Positions 23,926-35,034 of a DNA stretch of 44,200 nucleotides are shown one piece after another. The stretch's first letter is position 1, and each line of letters opens with the position of its first letter. Source of the DNA: Rhodothermales bacterium (lineage in GTDB: Bacteria > Bacteroidota > Rhodothermia > Rhodothermales > JAHQVL01); the NCBI GenBank assembly GCA_034439735.1, contig JAWXAX010000067.1, positions 1 to 44,200 of the forward strand, in the 5' to 3' direction. Made by a program: the position numbers and the translations under genes. The notes under the pieces are model-generated. The model was not told the origin of the DNA. It made no database searches and worked only from the letters and a program-made list of their open reading frames with translations.

Positions 23926-25791
23926 ATGGAAACACCCCGATCCAACCAGAAAACGACTGTTGACTTCCACGGAGAACGCACCCACACCTGTGGCGCGCTT
24001 CGCGAAGATCAGGTGGGCCAACAGGTCACGATCAAAGGGTGGGTAGATACTCGACGCGACCTCGGAGGGGTGATCTTCATCGACCTCCGGGACCGCCATG
24101 GCCTCACGCAGGCCGTCCTTTCGCCGCAGGACAACCCCGAAGCGTATGTCGTGGCCGAACGCTTGCGCACCGAAGACGTGATCTCGATCCAGGGCGTCGT
24201 ACGGCCGCGTTCGGAGGATACGGTCAATGCGCGTCTGCCGACGGGCACGGTGGAAGTGCGTGTATCCAGCCTGATTCCGCTCAACCGATCCGAGCCGATC
24301 CCCTTCCAGGTGTCCGCCCATGAGGAAAAGCGAAAGCTGGCGAACGAAGAATTGCGGCTTCGCTACCGGTATCTGGACCTCCGCCGGCCCGAGCTCCAGC
24401 GTAACCTCATCATTCGCCACCGGCTCTGCCAGGTCGTCCGCCGCGTGTTCGACAGCCACGGCTTCCTGGAGATCGAAACGCCGGTGCTGATGAAGTCGAC
24501 CCCGGAAGGAGCCCGGGACTTTCTCGTGCCGAGCCGGCTGCACCCCGGCCAGTTCTACGCCCTCCCGCAGTCGCCCCAGACCTATAAGCAGATTCTGATG
24601 GTGGCCGGCTTCGACCGCTACTTCCAGATCGTGAAGTGCTTCCGCGACGAAGACCTCCGCGCCGACCGCCAGCCGGAGTTCACCCAGGTGGACGTCGAGA
24701 TCACGTTCGCCACCGAGGCCATCGTCCAGCGCATCATCGAAGAGGTGATCACGACGGTCTGGCGCGAGATCAAAGGGGTCGAACTGGTCACGCCGTTCCA
24801 GCGCATGCCCTACGCCGAGGCCATGTCCCGGTACGGCAGCGACAAACCGGACCTCCGCTTCGGGCTCGAACTCCACGACCTCAGCTCTGCGTTTCAGGGC
24901 TCGGGCTTTCGTGTGTTTGAAAGTGTGCTGGAAACGGGCGGCAAGATCGTCGGTATCCGCGTTCCGGGCGAGGGCGACCGAGGCCGCGGCGCTATGGACC
25001 GGCTCGACAAGGAGTTCGTCCGCAAGCGGCTGGGCGCCGGCGGGCTCGTCTACTTCAAGCTCCCGTCCGACGGCTCGGAGACGTTTGCATCGGTGAAGTC
25101 CGACGTGCTCCCGACGGCTTCGGTCGAGGCCGCGCTTTCCCTGATTGGAGCGGAGAAGGGCGACCTGGTGCTCGTCCTCGCCGGCGCGGCCCCGAAGGTC
25201 TACGAACAAATGGGCGCCCTGCGCCTGCACATGGCCCGCGAACTCAACCTACTCCCCGAAGGCGACCAGGGGCCCTGGGCCTTTCTGTGGGTGACGGAGT
25301 TTCCGCTCCTGGAGTGGTCGGAGGAAGACAAGCGGTACGCCGCCATGCACCACCCGTTCACTTCGCCGCATCCCGACGACATGGACACCATGTTCGACAA
25401 CCCCGGCGCCACGCGCGCCCGGGCCTACGACCTCGTGCTCAACGGTAGCGAGGTGGGCGGCGGGTCTATCCGTATCCACAACCGCGAAATCCAGCAGCAG
25501 ATGTTCCGCCTGCTGAACATCGACGAAGTGGAAGCCGAACGGCGCTTCGGCTTTCTGCTCGGCGCCTTCACCTACGGCGCCCCGCCCCACGGCGGCATCG
25601 CCTTGGGCCTGGACCGCCTCACGATGCTCCTCTCCGGCACCGATAACATCCGCGACGTCATCGCTTTCCCCAAAACCCAGACGGGCCAGGAATTGATGGT
25701 GTCATCCCCGGACGAGGTCGACGATAAGCAGCTCAAGGAACTGCATATCCGGGTGGCGCTGCCGGAAATCAAGGAAAAAGGAAAAACATAA
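23926..25791 (+). CDS. aspS: aspartyl-tRNA synthetase
   Basis: Class II aminoacyl-tRNA synthetase charging tRNA-Asp, 621 residues, the bacterial type with a GAD insertion. Order: anticodon-binding OB fold near residues 30-130 (GWVDTRRDLGGVIFIDLRDR), motif 1 with FLEIETPVLMKSTPEGARDF, motif 2 with KCFRDEDLRADRQPEFTQ, the insert domain, and motif 3 GGIALGLDRLTMLL near the C-terminus. In the OB loop the residue after RRD is Leu and not His, which in characterised enzymes goes with a discriminating AspRS; this point is inferred. The stop codon (25789-25791) falls inside a purine-rich repeat, and the last residues KEKGKT are encoded by it. Confidence 0.96.
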   Translation: METPRSNQKTTVDFHGERTHTCGALREDQVGQQVTIKGWVDTRRDLGGVIFIDLRDRHGLTQAVLSPQDNPEAYVVAERLRTEDVISIQGVVRPRSEDTVNARLPTGTVEVRVSSLIPLNRSEPIPFQVSAHEEKRKLANEELRLRYRYLDLRRPELQRNLIIRHRLCQVVRRVFDSHGFLEIETPVLMKSTPEGARDFLVPSRLHPGQFYALPQSPQTYKQILMVAGFDRYFQIVKCFRDEDLRADRQPEFTQVDVEITFATEAIVQRIIEEVITTVWREIKGVELVTPFQRMPYAEAMSRYGSDKPDLRFGLELHDLSSAFQGSGFRVFESVLETGGKIVGIRVPGEGDRGRGAMDRLDKEFVRKRLGAGGLVYFKLPSDGSETFASVKSDVLPTASVEAALSLIGAEKGDLVLVLAGAAPKVYEQMGALRLHMARELNLLPEGDQGPWAFLWVTEFPLLEWSEEDKRYAAMHHPFTSPHPDDMDTMFDNPGATRARAYDLVLNGSEVGGGSIRIHNREIQQQMFRLLNIDEVEAERRFGFLLGAFTYGAPPHGGIALGLDRLTMLLSGTDNIRDVIAFPKTQTGQELMVSSPDEVDDKQLKELHIRVALPEIKEKGKT

Positions 25792-25928
25792 AAAGGAAAA
25801 AGGAAAAACATAAAAAGGCAAAAGGAAAAACATAAAAAGGCAAAAGAGAACAGAAAGGCCCACTCCGTTTTGCCTTTTACACTTTACCTTTTGCCTTTAT
25901 TTCGCCTTTATTTCGCCTTTATTTCGCC
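25771..25928. repeat. 7-base-periodic tandem repeats holding the stop codons of aspS and the subtilase
   Basis: From 25771 a 22-base purine-rich unit (AAAGG-A/C-AAAAGGAAAAACATAA) occurs about three and a half times to 25850. From 25869 the other strand type appears: 7-base words TTTGCCT, TTTACAC, TTTACCT, TTTGCCT, then three exact 11-base copies TTTATTTCGCC at 25896-25928. The aspS stop lies in the first array and the subtilase stop (25919-25921) in the last 11-base copy. The two arrays are roughly complementary and can pair. Confidence 0.85.
25835..25878. terminator. probable bidirectional terminator between aspS and the subtilase
   Basis: AAAAGGCAAAA at 25835-25845 is the exact inverse of TTTTGCCTTTT at 25868-25878, an 11-base stem with a 22-base loop. 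It lies 43 nt past the aspS stop and in the 3' region of the convergent subtilase gene. The stem is A/T-rich, so stability is moderate; further copies of the words allow alternative pairing. Confidence 0.5.
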
Positions 25929-30160: not shown

Positions 30161-30578
30161 GGCGGTGGCTGGGGTTGGCGCGAGGGATCAGGTAGGGTAT
30201 CACGTGAGCCAACGGCGCATGTTTCGGCTAGAGTGTGGCCAAAAGGCGCTGCAACAAAACGAGTATGGATCTGCGACACGCCCGTGACATCTCACGGTTA
30301 TGAAGAGCCTTTTTTCTCACAGTGAGACACAAAAAAGTCGGCGGTGTGGCCCTATCAACACGTCCAACGGCATCCAGGGAATTGGCACGATACTCGTCTG
30401 CAGCCGCGCGTACTTGTCAGTACCCGTCCGATCTTCGGCACATCACATCCGCGACGCGCGCGATCAAACGCACGGGTCGCGCCGGCGGGAGAAGCAATCG
30501 TGAGCCATCGGCGCGCGCAGTCTTGTAAGACATTTATGACACTTTGCGCACATTCTCGGAATGTATCCGATTATATTT
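30161..30578. other. intergenic stretch, no gene recognised
   Basis: About 418 bases of lower-GC DNA. All frames here are short or read as low-quality Arg/His/Pro-rich sequence. A small CTCACAGTGAG palindrome near 30317 and a T-run before it are the only structures seen, and neither forms a convincing terminator. Possible remnant or RNA-coding region; nothing decisive. Confidence 0.35.
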
Positions 30579-30740
30579 ATGGCTCCCCTTCCCCACTGGC
30601 TACTCTTCCACTCCAATTTGTTGGGATTTATGCGACAGAGCAGTACAAATTCATGGGGCACCGCTGTAAGTCTGGCCGTGGCTATACTGGCTTTCCTCTT
30701 TATCTTTCTCTCCGTAGCCATTCTTGGCCTCGGGGGATGA
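30579..30740 (+). CDS. predicted small single-pass membrane protein, 53 or 36 aa
   Basis: A frame of 53 codons whose second half is a long hydrophobic helix (LAVAILAFLFIFLSVAILG, about residues 32-50) after a polar stretch QSSTNSWGT. The ATG at 30630 (MRQSSTNSW) would give 36 residues and a cleaner protein; a TATATT element at 30572-30577 would even make the first ATG untranslated. The stop is TGA at 30738-30740. No family is recognised. The codons are AT-richer than in neighbouring genes, fitting the foreign-looking composition of 30000-32000. The role is unknown; such proteins are often stress-related or partner subunits, which cannot be told here. Confidence 0.42.
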   Translation: MAPLPHWLLFHSNLLGFMRQSSTNSWGTAVSLAVAILAFLFIFLSVAILGLGG

Positions 30741-30884
30741 TGGGTAGAAGTTGACGCAAAACGCGCGTGCATGCCGTGCTCCAGATGCGACGGAGCGATA
30801 GAAATCCCTCATTTCATTCGACACTCGGTTTCATCCGGAGCACGGCTGCCATGTATATAGGGCGGGCCCTCCCCACTCGTCGTG

Positions 30885-31586
30885 TCAGTCGGACGCTCGA
30901 TCGATCCCCTGAACCTCCTCCCAGCGCTTCGGCACGTGGCCTCCCAGATCCCGAATGCGTGTCTTGATCGACTCGATCCGCTTCCGTTGATCGGCATTCT
31001 GGCCTTTATCCGAACGCATCATATCCAACGCCTCGATATACTGATCGAGCGCGCGTTCGCGGTGACCTTTCGTCGAGTCTTTTTCTGCGCTTTCGAGCAG
31101 GAAACCGCTCAGGTTTTGCTCGACCCTTTGGCGCAGCATCACGGCATTGGCTTCGCCGAGTTGAACACGGTAGGTCTCGATGGCTTCGATGACGCGGTTC
31201 AACTGCTCGACCTTCGGCGGGCGCTCGCCTGCGCCGTCGCCGGCATCCGACCCGACGGCATTTAGCAGCCCTTCGATGTGTTCCTGGGCGAACTTCCGCT
31301 CGGTCACATACATGCGCGCGACCCACTCCTGCGGCGACGGTTTTAAGGAGAGCAGCCCCTTTTCGTAGAACGGCACAAGCTCTCGAAGGTGGCGAATCGC
31401 GTCCTGGCTGCGGGCGAGGCGAACGTCCAGGTCGCGCGAGCGGCGCATTGTGGCCAGGTGTTCATTCAACGCGCGCATGGATGTGACGATGCGCGCTTTA
31501 ACCGTGCCATCGCATTTCTGGCAAAGCCCTTCCCGCGAAAGCGAGAGGAACCATCCCTTATTTCCACACCACGTACATTGGCGCAT
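30885..31586 (-). CDS. zinc-ribbon protein of unknown function, 233 aa
   Basis: The N-terminus holds a four-cysteine zinc ribbon: C4-x2-C7-x14-C22-x2-C25 (MRQCTWCGNKGW ... GLCQKC). The remaining 200 residues are helical and highly charged, with TPR-like or coiled-coil character (RVEQNLSGFLLESAEKD, ALDQYIEALDMM), and no signal peptide or membrane segment. I do not recognise a named family. It stands alone on the minus strand in a gene-poor region; 27-50 nt upstream of its start ATTAAGAG occurs twice with a 12-base period (31613-31620, 31625-31632), a possible regulator site. A cytosolic role in nucleic-acid or protein binding is a guess from the zinc ribbon. Confidence 0.72.
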   Translation of the reverse strand: MRQCTWCGNKGWFLSLSREGLCQKCDGTVKARIVTSMRALNEHLATMRRSRDLDVRLARSQDAIRHLRELVPFYEKGLLSLKPSPQEWVARMYVTERKFAQEHIEGLLNAVGSDAGDGAGERPPKVEQLNRVIEAIETYRVQLGEANAVMLRQRVEQNLSGFLLESAEKDSTKGHRERALDQYIEALDMMRSDKGQNADQRKRIESIKTRIRDLGGHVPKRWEEVQGIDRASD

Positions 31587-32059: not shown

Positions 32060-32791
32060 ATGTTTACCCCCTTGCGTACCCTGGCAAGGCGTACATCGGC
32101 CGATGTACCCAGCCCGGCACGTGTTCTTGTAGTCGACCCGCACCCAATCATTGGCGACGCGGTACGTGTGCTCCTGAATCCAACCGCTGACCTCGCATTT
32201 GCAGGGTTCGCTTCCACGGCGCGGGAGGCTCACCGTGCGGTGGCGCGCACCGCGCCGCACGTGGTGCTCCTTGAACTCTCGTTGGAAGACGGGTACGGGC
32301 TCGACCTCGCCGTTCAACTGCTCATCCACCATCCCGAACTTCGCATCCTCATCTACACGATGTATGCGGAACACGTTTTTGCCGAGCGAGCAATCGAGGT
32401 AGGGGCCGCCGGCTACCTTATGAAGCGCGTCGAACCACACGAATTACTTGAGGGCATCCGCCGCGTGCTTCGCCAGGAGACCTACCTCAGCCAGGCCGCC
32501 ACCGCCCGCCTCCTCAACAAAATCACCCGTCGCCCCACGCGCGACCGTAGCCATACCCTCGAACGCCTCACCCAGCGCGAACTTGCGGTGCTGCTCATGC
32601 TCGGCGAAGGCTCGACCCCTCACGATATCGCCCATCGCCTCAATCTGGATCGGAAAACGGTCGAAACCCATCGGCGCCGCGTCAAAGAAAAACTCGGCTT
32701 TGAGAGCGTTTCGTCCCTCCTCCATTACGCCACCAACTGGCGCCACGCGCAGGGCGCCCTCGAACCACCACTCGAAACGACCTTATCCTGA
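32060..32791 (+). CDS. NarL/FixJ-type response regulator with atypical receiver (Glu at phosphosite)
   Basis: A 243-residue two-domain regulator. The receiver spans about residues 21-140, the LuxR-type helix-turn-helix about 170-235 (LTQRELAVLLMLGEGSTPHDIA, then RKTVETHRRRVKEKLGF). In the receiver the usual phospho-accepting Asp is Glu72 (VVLLELSLEDG) and the second acidic metal ligand is Pro (VVDPHPI, D26-P27). The switch Thr100 and Lys122 are kept at the standard spacing (+28 and +50). Glu in this place often mimics the phosphorylated state, so it may bind DNA without a kinase. No sensor kinase is nearby. An extra N-terminal segment of 20 residues precedes the receiver. Targets are unknown. 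Confidence 0.9.
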   Translation: MFTPLRTLARRTSADVPSPARVLVVDPHPIIGDAVRVLLNPTADLAFAGFASTAREAHRAVARTAPHVVLLELSLEDGYGLDLAVQLLIHHPELRILIYTMYAEHVFAERAIEVGAAGYLMKRVEPHELLEGIRRVLRQETYLSQAATARLLNKITRRPTRDRSHTLERLTQRELAVLLMLGEGSTPHDIAHRLNLDRKTVETHRRRVKEKLGFESVSSLLHYATNWRHAQGALEPPLETTLS

Positions 32792-32872: not shown

Positions 32873-33166
32873 ATGTTCTCATCCCTATCGACCGCTCTGA
32901 AAAAACCAGATCCACTCCCCGACCCGCCGGGCCCGGCGCCCCCTGAAGCGCCCGAGCCGCCCGAGATGCCCGCGCCGCCCCTGCGTCGCTGGGCGCGTCC
33001 CGATCCGGACTGGAGCCGGACGGATCCCCGGTATCAGAACAAGGATCCCCGCTGGGCGACCACCGACCCCAAGTTCGCCAGTAAAGATCCGAAGTTTGAG
33101 AAGAGCGACGAAAGGTGGTCCCGTATCGATCCCAACTGGAAAATCGAGAAGAAGCCAGGGGATTGA
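32873..33166 (+). CDS. 97-residue protein built of seven D-P-x-aromatic heptads
   Basis: Family not recognised. Residues 12-36 are Pro/Glu-rich. From residue 44 to 92 the chain is seven consecutive 7-residue repeats of form D-P-x-[W/Y/F]-x-x-x: DPDWSRT, DPRYQNK, DPRWATT, DPKFASK, DPKFEKS, DERWSRI, DPNWKIE; a degenerate eighth with Trp40 precedes them. The repeats use different codons for the same residues (Asp gat/gac, Pro ccc/ccg, Lys aag/aaa), so the pattern is kept at protein level and is not a recent DNA duplication. There is no signal peptide, membrane helix or Cys. The protein is basic at the C-terminus. It follows the atypical response regulator by 81 nt. A binding or scaffolding role is a guess. 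Confidence 0.72.
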   Translation: MFSSLSTALKKPDPLPDPPGPAPPEAPEPPEMPAPPLRRWARPDPDWSRTDPRYQNKDPRWATTDPKFASKDPKFEKSDERWSRIDPNWKIEKKPGD

Positions 33167-33170
33167 CCAA

Positions 33171-33205
33171 AAAAACACGGCCGGCGAAGGATTGCTCGCC
33201 GGCCG
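33171..33205 (-). terminator. terminator of the Nudix gene (minus strand)
   Basis: CGGCCGGCGA (33178-33187) and TCGCCGGCCG (33196-33205) pair perfectly around an 8-base loop. On the minus strand the hairpin is followed by TGTTTTTTTGG, a U-run. It lies 35 nt beyond the stop of the Nudix gene and 11 nt beyond the stop of the convergent heptad gene, so it may serve both. Confidence 0.85.
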
Positions 33206-33240: not shown

Positions 33241-33717
33241 CTAGCTCTGATACATCAGCTCTTCCGTTTTAACCCGGCGCTGCAATCGCGCATACAGCTC
33301 CCATAACGCGGTTTTTGAAGCGTCGGACGCCAGCATCGAAGTGGCTTCCTCATATCCGATCCAGCGGTAATCCGCTTGCGGATCGTTTGGCTGGATGGAC
33401 TCGGAATCGACTTCGACGCCGAAGCAATACTGGGGCAGCACGAACCGTCCGTTCGCGATCGTGTAATGCCCGGCGAACTGCGAGGCCGGCACGGCATTCA
33501 CGCAATCAAGCACCATGAATCGCTCCTCGCCGACATCCAACCCCGCTTCCTGCCCGCTTTTGCGCCTCGCGGCCTCGATGGGGGTCTCGAGTTCCTGGCC
33601 CTTGCCCGAAATACCTTGCCAGCTGTCTTTCTCCGGCCGCTGAAACACGGCGAATTTTACATCCTGATCCACGACACGATACGGGAAGACGAGCACTTGA
33701 AAGGGTGTACGAGTCAT
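33241..33717 (-). CDS. Nudix-fold hydrolase with degenerate Nudix box
   Basis: A 158-residue single Nudix domain. The fold is clear (FQVLVFPYRV, FAVFQRPEKDSWQGISG), with closest layout to dihydroneopterin-triphosphate pyrophosphatase-like Nudix proteins. The box itself reads G-KGQEL-E-TPIEAAR-R-K-SGQEAGL: compared with G-x5-E-x7-R-E-U-x-E-E-x-G-U, the Glu after Arg is Lys and the first of the paired Glu is Gln, leaving one Glu of the metal-binding set. It may have low or altered activity, or be a binding protein. The next gene (another Nudix) lies upstream, 134 nt away, and has an intact box. A strong terminator lies downstream. Confidence 0.82.
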   Translation of the reverse strand: MTRTPFQVLVFPYRVVDQDVKFAVFQRPEKDSWQGISGKGQELETPIEAARRKSGQEAGLDVGEERFMVLDCVNAVPASQFAGHYTIANGRFVLPQYCFGVEVDSESIQPNDPQADYRWIGYEEATSMLASDASKTALWELYARLQRRVKTEELMYQS

Positions 33718-33851: not shown

Positions 33852-34757
33852 TCAATCGATCCGCCAGTCGAGCATGCGCTCCTGGTCAAACAGGAAACGC
33901 CCCTGAAACGGTCGGCCGCTCAGGAGATACGGCATCCAGATCCGATCATCCTCCCACATTTCTTCGTAGGGGATCGCGTCCATATCGGTCCAGAGCGGGA
34001 CTGCCTCATCGGTTTCTGTAGGCTCGCCGATGAGTCCCCCGGCGCGGAAGACATGGACGTGGATCGAGTAGCCGTCGACAAACTGAAACCTCAGTTCGCC
34101 GCCTTTCTCCAGGGTCGTGGGGGTGACGAGCAGTTCTTCCTGGACCTCGCGGATGGCGCCCTCATGCGGGGCCTCGCCGAACTCGAGCCGGCCGCCCGGG
34201 CCGTTGATTTTCCCTGCACCGAGGCCTCTTTTTTTGCGGATCAACAAGACCTTCCCGTCCTGCACGACAAACAGCAACGTCGCCGGATCCACGGGCCGCC
34301 AGACGTTCCAGTCGATGTCCGCCAGAGTGGTGGCCGCGAGGACCAGCTCGGCCCTCAACGCGTCGAGACGGTCGTGAATGTCGTGCGGCAGGGCCGTATC
34401 AGGGTTGCGCAGCACTTCGGCGTACAGGGCGTGGGCATGTTGAAGCCAGCGTTGCGCCTCCGCGCGCCCGGCTTCCCCCCGCTCGAGCAGCACCAGCTGA
34501 CCCCGCTCGTTCAGCAAATCCGCCAGCGCCAGCGCCTTCTCCCCACTCCATCCGCCGAGCTCCCGACACCGGGCCAGCAACGCGATCCGGTGGAGCGCGT
34601 CGAGCCCGCCGGCATCGAGACCGAGCAGATCCCGTAACGCCTCGTCGATCTCCCGGCGCGCTTCGTCGTACGCATGCATGCTTTTATGAAACAGGACGCG
34701 CGCCAGGACCTGGACGAGTTGCTGGATCTGCCGCAGTATGGTGTCGCGGGAAAACAT
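33852..34757 (-). CDS. two-domain protein: helical N-terminal domain plus MTH1-like Nudix hydrolase
   Basis: A 301-residue protein. Residues 1 to about 150 are helical (MFSRDTILRQIQQLVQVLARVLF, many Leu/Arg/Glu), resembling the DUF6483-type domain; the resemblance is from memory of the motif and not a search. From about residue 155 a Nudix domain follows with an intact box: G-GRLEFG-E ... REVQEELLV, and the preceding GKINGPGG resembles MTH1-type 8-oxo-dGTP hydrolases. The frame is open to 34814, but ATG at 34757 fits best, since it lies 1 nt past the stop of the membrane-protein gene at 34759 (translational coupling). Role: probably sanitising oxidised nucleotides or another NDP-X, unproven. 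Confidence 0.83.
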   Translation of the reverse strand: MFSRDTILRQIQQLVQVLARVLFHKSMHAYDEARREIDEALRDLLGLDAGGLDALHRIALLARCRELGGWSGEKALALADLLNERGQLVLLERGEAGRAEAQRWLQHAHALYAEVLRNPDTALPHDIHDRLDALRAELVLAATTLADIDWNVWRPVDPATLLFVVQDGKVLLIRKKRGLGAGKINGPGGRLEFGEAPHEGAIREVQEELLVTPTTLEKGGELRFQFVDGYSIHVHVFRAGGLIGEPTETDEAVPLWTDMDAIPYEEMWEDDRIWMPYLLSGRPFQGRFLFDQERMLDWRID

Positions 34758-34758
34758 A

Positions 34759-35034
34759 TCAGGGAGAGGGATCGGTTGGAGGTGCCGGCCGGCGCAGCGC
34801 CCGCGCCACGCCATACAGACTTATGAGCACCCAGAAGGCCTCGACGATAAATGCGGACAGATTAAACGCATAATGGAGCGAAACCAGCACACCCGCCGCT
34901 CCCGCGGCATTGATGGCGGAGTATGCCAGGCTGTCGCTGCGGAGCCGGCCGATCTGCAGCAACGCATACGCCACCAGAATCGCCGCAACGCCGGCCAGCC
35001 CTACGATATCGTACCACGCATGTGAAATCGTCAT
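34759..35034 (-). CDS. small membrane protein, CBU_0592-like, 91 aa
   Basis: A 91-residue protein with about three predicted helices (IVGLAGVAAILVAYALLQIG, SAINAAGAAGVLVSLHYAF, FIVEAFWVLISLYGVARAL). The layout, with LLQIGRLRSDSLAYSAIN in the first loop and a Trp-containing last helix, matches the small CBU_0592-like membrane family of unknown function. It is coupled to the Nudix gene downstream, whose ATG lies 1 nt past its stop. A shared function is suggested only by this coupling. Confidence 0.72.
   Translation of the reverse strand: MTISHAWYDIVGLAGVAAILVAYALLQIGRLRSDSLAYSAINAAGAAGVLVSLHYAFNLSAFIVEAFWVLISLYGVARALRRPAPPTDPSP

Follow-up and report, generated by a model that had tools for sequence, protein, structure and literature searches.

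The short open reading frame at 32873-33166 (+) of the window, the 44,200-nucleotide stretch of DNA analysed here, raises the question of whether a string of heptads resembling no recognised family is a genuine protein and, if so, what such a protein might do. The frame is intact and free of stops on translation, with 97 codons encoding 97 residues, and the ATG at 32873 is the only full-length start, because an in-frame TGA lies 18 bases 5' of it. A Shine-Dalgarno or other ribosome-binding site is not evident 5' of this ATG, and the promoter scan found nothing in the 81-bp gap that separates the gene from the one upstream. The encoded protein begins with a head of 43 residues (MFSSLSTALKKPDPLPDPPGPAPPEAPEPPEMPAPPLRRWARP; 32873-33001, +), in which a short N-terminal stretch is followed by a Pro-rich spacer that also contains some Glu, much as had been described. 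Seven heptads of the form D-[P/E]-x-[W/Y/F]-x-x-x follow (residues 44-92; 33002-33148, +), and the protein ends in the tail KKPGD. A signal peptide is not evident from the sequence, and the protein is probably cytoplasmic.

The seven units read DPDWSRT, DPRYQNK, DPRWATT, DPKFASK, DPKFEKS, DERWSRI and DPNWKIE. The preliminary description of seven back-to-back repeats of seven residues is confirmed by this analysis, with the qualification that one unit (DERWSRI) carries DE where the other six carry DP; the longest run of the motif in 20,000 shuffles of residues 39-97 was two, against the seven observed. The BLOSUM self-similarity of the protein peaks at lags 7, 14 and 21 only. Residue W40 of the head stands in the register of the array, which gives a series of eight aromatic residues. 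The array is strongly hydrophilic (hydropathy -1.97), with 11 basic and 11 acidic residues and a net charge of zero.

Whether the array is maintained as protein or as repetitive DNA is a question of some weight here, since a search of GTDB contigs for four consecutive units yielded at least 119 stretches, almost all of which are 21-bp tandem repeats with near-perfect copies, in some cases broken by stop codons. The 21-bp minisatellites resemble the window protein in encoding D-P-x-aromatic heptads in one reading frame, but they consist of near-identical DNA copies and often contain stops or lie in no gene, whereas the silent sites of the window array have diverged to randomness. On the average, its units share 48% DNA identity, with 0.64, 0.45 and 0.35 identity at codon positions 1, 2 and 3, and the third-position value (0.347) matches that of random synonymous codons drawn with the neighbours' usage (0.352, sd 0.044). 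The claim that codons for the same residues differ between units is therefore correct and can be given numbers, and Tandem Repeats Finder reported no array over the heptads. In the motif columns (D, P and aromatic), which were picked after the repeat had been seen and come from few units of one gene, pN is 0.25 vs. a pS of 0.83, while both values are 0.66 in the other four columns. Saturated silent sites, a retained motif and drifting linkers point to a translated frame selected for its motif, and the suggestion that the repeat has been kept by selection on protein sequence, not by DNA slippage, is supported to this extent. Because no homologue with the heptads was found, selection was judged between the units of this one gene, and the within-array test serves as a stand-in for conservation between species.

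The coding signal agrees with this. Among the six frames only that of the heptads has positive coding log-odds, and the codon choice of the gene is closer to that of its neighbours than expected by chance (p ~0.0085 vs. base composition). This lean is weaker than in any of the eight neighbouring genes, which would not be surprising if the gene is short, foreign or weakly expressed. We conclude that the heptad gene is very probably real. More generally, comparison of an orphan gene's own repeat units can reveal selection, which helps to separate orphan proteins from minisatellites that happen to be open.

In order to place the protein, searches were performed at several levels. No match below E 0.7 was found in Pfam, NCBIfam or PHROGs and none among PDB sequences, in agreement with the earlier statement that it belongs to no recognised family; a literature search gave nothing apt on such a repeat. 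No homologue was detected in 40 relatives, in 113-114 genomes of the order or in 395 of the phylum (about 500 genomes of the phylum in all), nor in phages, and no near-identical DNA exists in the plasmids searched. GTDB and IMG/VR contigs, covered by coarser tests, likewise gave no homologue. The contig search for related loci confirmed none in genome or viral contigs; it needs exact stretches of eight residues and is for this reason insensitive to heptads, and in general a negative search says little where short disordered repeats are concerned. The preliminary description had named absence of the heptad pattern from related genomes as counting against its interpretation, and absence is what was found, in the 40 relatives as in the order and the phylum.

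Several weak matches were inspected and set aside. Three plasmid tblastn matches were judged spurious: a Streptomyces minisatellite, a hypothetical protein of Borrelia that has a long Pro-rich stretch but lacks heptads, and a match on the strand opposite a CheR gene. Among the viral matches with DPQWDRKDPPWDQR (L152, L154), L154 is the Pro/Gly-rich end of a 785-aa phage protein read in another frame. The phylum-wide matches L217 (1399-1627) and L218 (1502-1635) are 21-bp and 7-bp minisatellites that mimic heptad proteins when translated; apart from the one similar protein described below (L203), matches by pattern or similarity elsewhere were repetitive DNA or frames open by chance. Of the weak matches (E 0.006 and above) within the genome that carries the window, the one inspected (L013) has no heptads.

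The best reading of the data searched is a lineage-restricted orphan gene, currently represented by one gene from one genome. Like other lineage-specific bacterial orphan genes it is short, has no detected homologue and appears prone to disorder; it differs from a newly born gene in that its array bears the marks of having long been translated under selection.

The structure prediction called for in the preliminary description gave no fold. AlphaFold was run on the single sequence, a mode that often fails even on folded proteins, and returned a mean pLDDT of 65 and a pTM of 0.14 for the whole protein and of 59 and 0.15 for the array alone. Neither run contained a helix of four or more residues. 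The whole protein shows only helical turns of three residues, on the P-x-aromatic segments of units 2, 3 and 4 (residues 52-54, 59-61 and 66-68), and those on units 2 and 3 recur when the array is predicted alone. An Asp-Pro pair classically initiates a type-I turn or a helix cap. The protein is probably a flexible and largely disordered string of sticky motifs.

Our preferred reading, to which we assign a probability of roughly 0.45 as a whole, is that of a genuine, lineage-restricted small protein acting as a disordered, multivalent ligand built of Asp-Pro turns and aromatic residues. Each Asp-Pro would nucleate a tight turn, the Asp side chain capping it and the Pro locking the backbone, and the turn would hold in place the side chain of the aromatic residue three positions beyond the Asp. 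Eight aromatic rings would then be displayed at a constant spacing of seven residues between balanced charges, the Pro-rich head serving as a spacer. The array may thus act as a multivalent scaffold or clustering peptide for a small pocket or surface present in several copies, on a putative partner with repeated or oligomeric pockets.

A precedent for such a mechanism, though not for descent, is Eps15, in which consecutive DPF motifs form type-I turns through bonding of the Asp side chain to the backbone and packing of Pro against Phe, and fragments with more DPF motifs tend towards tighter binding (PMC4731787). The domains that bind DPF arrays of this type, mu-homology or appendage domains, belong to eukaryotic endocytosis (PMC4731787). 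Eps15 and Eps15R carry up to six closely spaced, turn-forming Asp-Pro-aromatic motifs and are multivalent (PMC4731787), properties that the window array would share if its turns and multivalency are as we suppose. In the eukaryotic proteins, however, Phe comes straight after Pro and the linkers are of two or three residues, whereas the window array has one residue between Pro and W, Y or F and a spacing of exactly seven; all its units are D-[P/E]-x-aromatic, none a DPF tripeptide, and there is no sign of common descent. It is conceivable, if rather doubtful, that the array represents an undescribed kind of bacterial peptide repeat, in which spaced Asp-Pro turns would act as a ruler presenting aromatic residues, a counterpart of the endocytic DPF arrays in mechanism and not in origin. 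If expressed, the protein would offer a small, very regular and probably disordered bacterial array for testing Asp-Pro-aromatic binding and clustering.

Among the other explanations, the one that survives best is that the protein is a fast-evolving member of a known family, unrecognisable from one repetitive sequence, for instance a nucleic-acid-binding protein or a surface or adhesive repeat protein. Nucleic-acid-binding and adhesive proteins do contain repeats with aromatic and basic residues, and short repetitive queries make for weak homology searches. The net charge of zero, the lack of an evident signal peptide and the blank profile and PDB searches nevertheless speak against it, and we consider it unlikely, albeit the strongest of the competing explanations.

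A possible relative is suggested by the best open-frame protein match in the order, found in one genome of 113 (E ~1e-3, 36% identity over 39 aa). This protein (L203 in genome G068) is a frame of 233 residues that contains DERFAQVDQRFAQVDQRFAQV and represents a typical heptad coiled coil of the D-x-R-F-x-x-V kind. Such coils share with the window array the period of seven, Asp at position 1, Arg or Lys at position 3 and an aromatic residue at position 4; unit 6 of the array, DERWSRI, is close to DERFAQV, and BLASTP aligns the two proteins unit to unit. A period of seven with Asp-x-Arg-aromatic is consequently not without precedent, contrary to the preliminary description, which had seen no match to coiled coils: the period and the Asp, basic and aromatic positions do fit one class, DERFAQVDQRFAQV, but the prolines and position 7 set the window protein apart. 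The coils are free of proline and complete their core with V, I or L at position 7 beside the aromatic residue at position 4. In the window array, six of the seven units have Pro as their second residue, which would break a continuous helix, and position 7 reads T, K, T, K, S, I and E, a polar or charged residue everywhere except in unit 6, and so a coiled coil is unlikely for it. The absence of longer helices from both AlphaFold runs also argues against a drifted coil or a helix-forming relative of one, as does the absence of any other match to the D-x-R-F coil pattern in the window's genome and its two family relatives. The BLASTP alignment fits equally well when slid by one unit, and a low-complexity alignment of period 7 is no proof of descent. 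A drifted coil, or a helix-forming relative of one, appears improbable.

Another possibility is that the protein is a small partner or antagonist of the regulator encoded immediately upstream (32060-32791, +) and is co-transcribed with it. The regulator is of the NarL/FixJ type by Pfam and is possibly co-transcribed with the heptad gene, which starts 81 bp downstream on the same strand; no terminator on the + strand was found between the two in the scan. It was earlier called unusual, and justly so, as the alignment places E72 where the acceptor Asp is expected, making it a pseudo-receiver. This is a known minority kind: receivers without the Asp amount to ~2%, and Glu is a common replacement (PMC12632262). 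With Glu in place of the acceptor Asp, ordinary Asp phosphorylation cannot switch the regulator and another input is needed, a role that a small partner might fill. However, the orthologous regulators of the two family relatives, both of other genera (G001, 59% identical; G002, 56%), are not followed by a heptad gene, although they too lack the acceptor Asp. These closest relatives have Ser at that position, and a more distant relative in G009 has Asp. A partnership with the regulator accordingly seems a rather remote explanation.

The weakest reading, that the heptads are a 21-bp (or 7-bp) DNA minisatellite open in frame by chance and devoid of protein function, draws on the ready origin of such repeats in bacterial DNA and on the fact that nearly all other places with D-P-aromatic motifs at period 7, among the matches listed, are near-perfect 21-bp minisatellites, but it is very improbable given randomised third positions beside Asp, Pro and aromatic codons that keep their meaning, as an old, unselected and decaying repeat would have lost its first and second codon positions too.

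The preferred reading of a lineage-restricted gene is consistent with the gene order. The regulator and the divergent gene at 30885-31586 (-) are kept together in G001 and G002, where convergent genes and no heptad gene follow the regulator. The heptad gene thus lies at a synteny break and, judging from the two family-level genomes compared, would be either a gain in the window lineage or a loss in both family relatives. The divergent gene itself, which also adjoins the regulator in both relatives, encodes a protein of 233 aa that has a CxxC...CxxC head and fits no Pfam family clearly. Beside it, a 102-aa frame (30464-30772, -) has a match of 54% identity in G001.

On its other side the heptad gene is bordered by a strong terminator-like hairpin with a T run (33178-33205, -), assigned by the terminator scan to a convergent gene for a NUDIX hydrolase (33241-33717, -; Pfam), so that the response regulator and two NUDIX genes flank it. 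A search of 20 relatives at E 1e-10 gave no match to the convergent NUDIX gene. The second NUDIX gene lies close by on the same strand (33852-34814, -). The region had been described as having few ordinary genes, a view that does not hold: ordinary chromosomal genes occur on both sides, and the wider region encodes a class II tRNA synthetase with a GAD domain, a subtilase, an amidohydrolase and a cytochrome c peroxidase. The only Rfam matches in the window are two tRNAs. Two short tandem repeats were observed within 25771-25928: a 22-bp repeat, AAGGAAAAAGGAAAAACATAAA (3.5 copies), overlaps the end of the gene for the class II tRNA synthetase (23926-25791), and an 11-bp repeat, TTTCGCCTTTA (3.6 copies), lies just past it.
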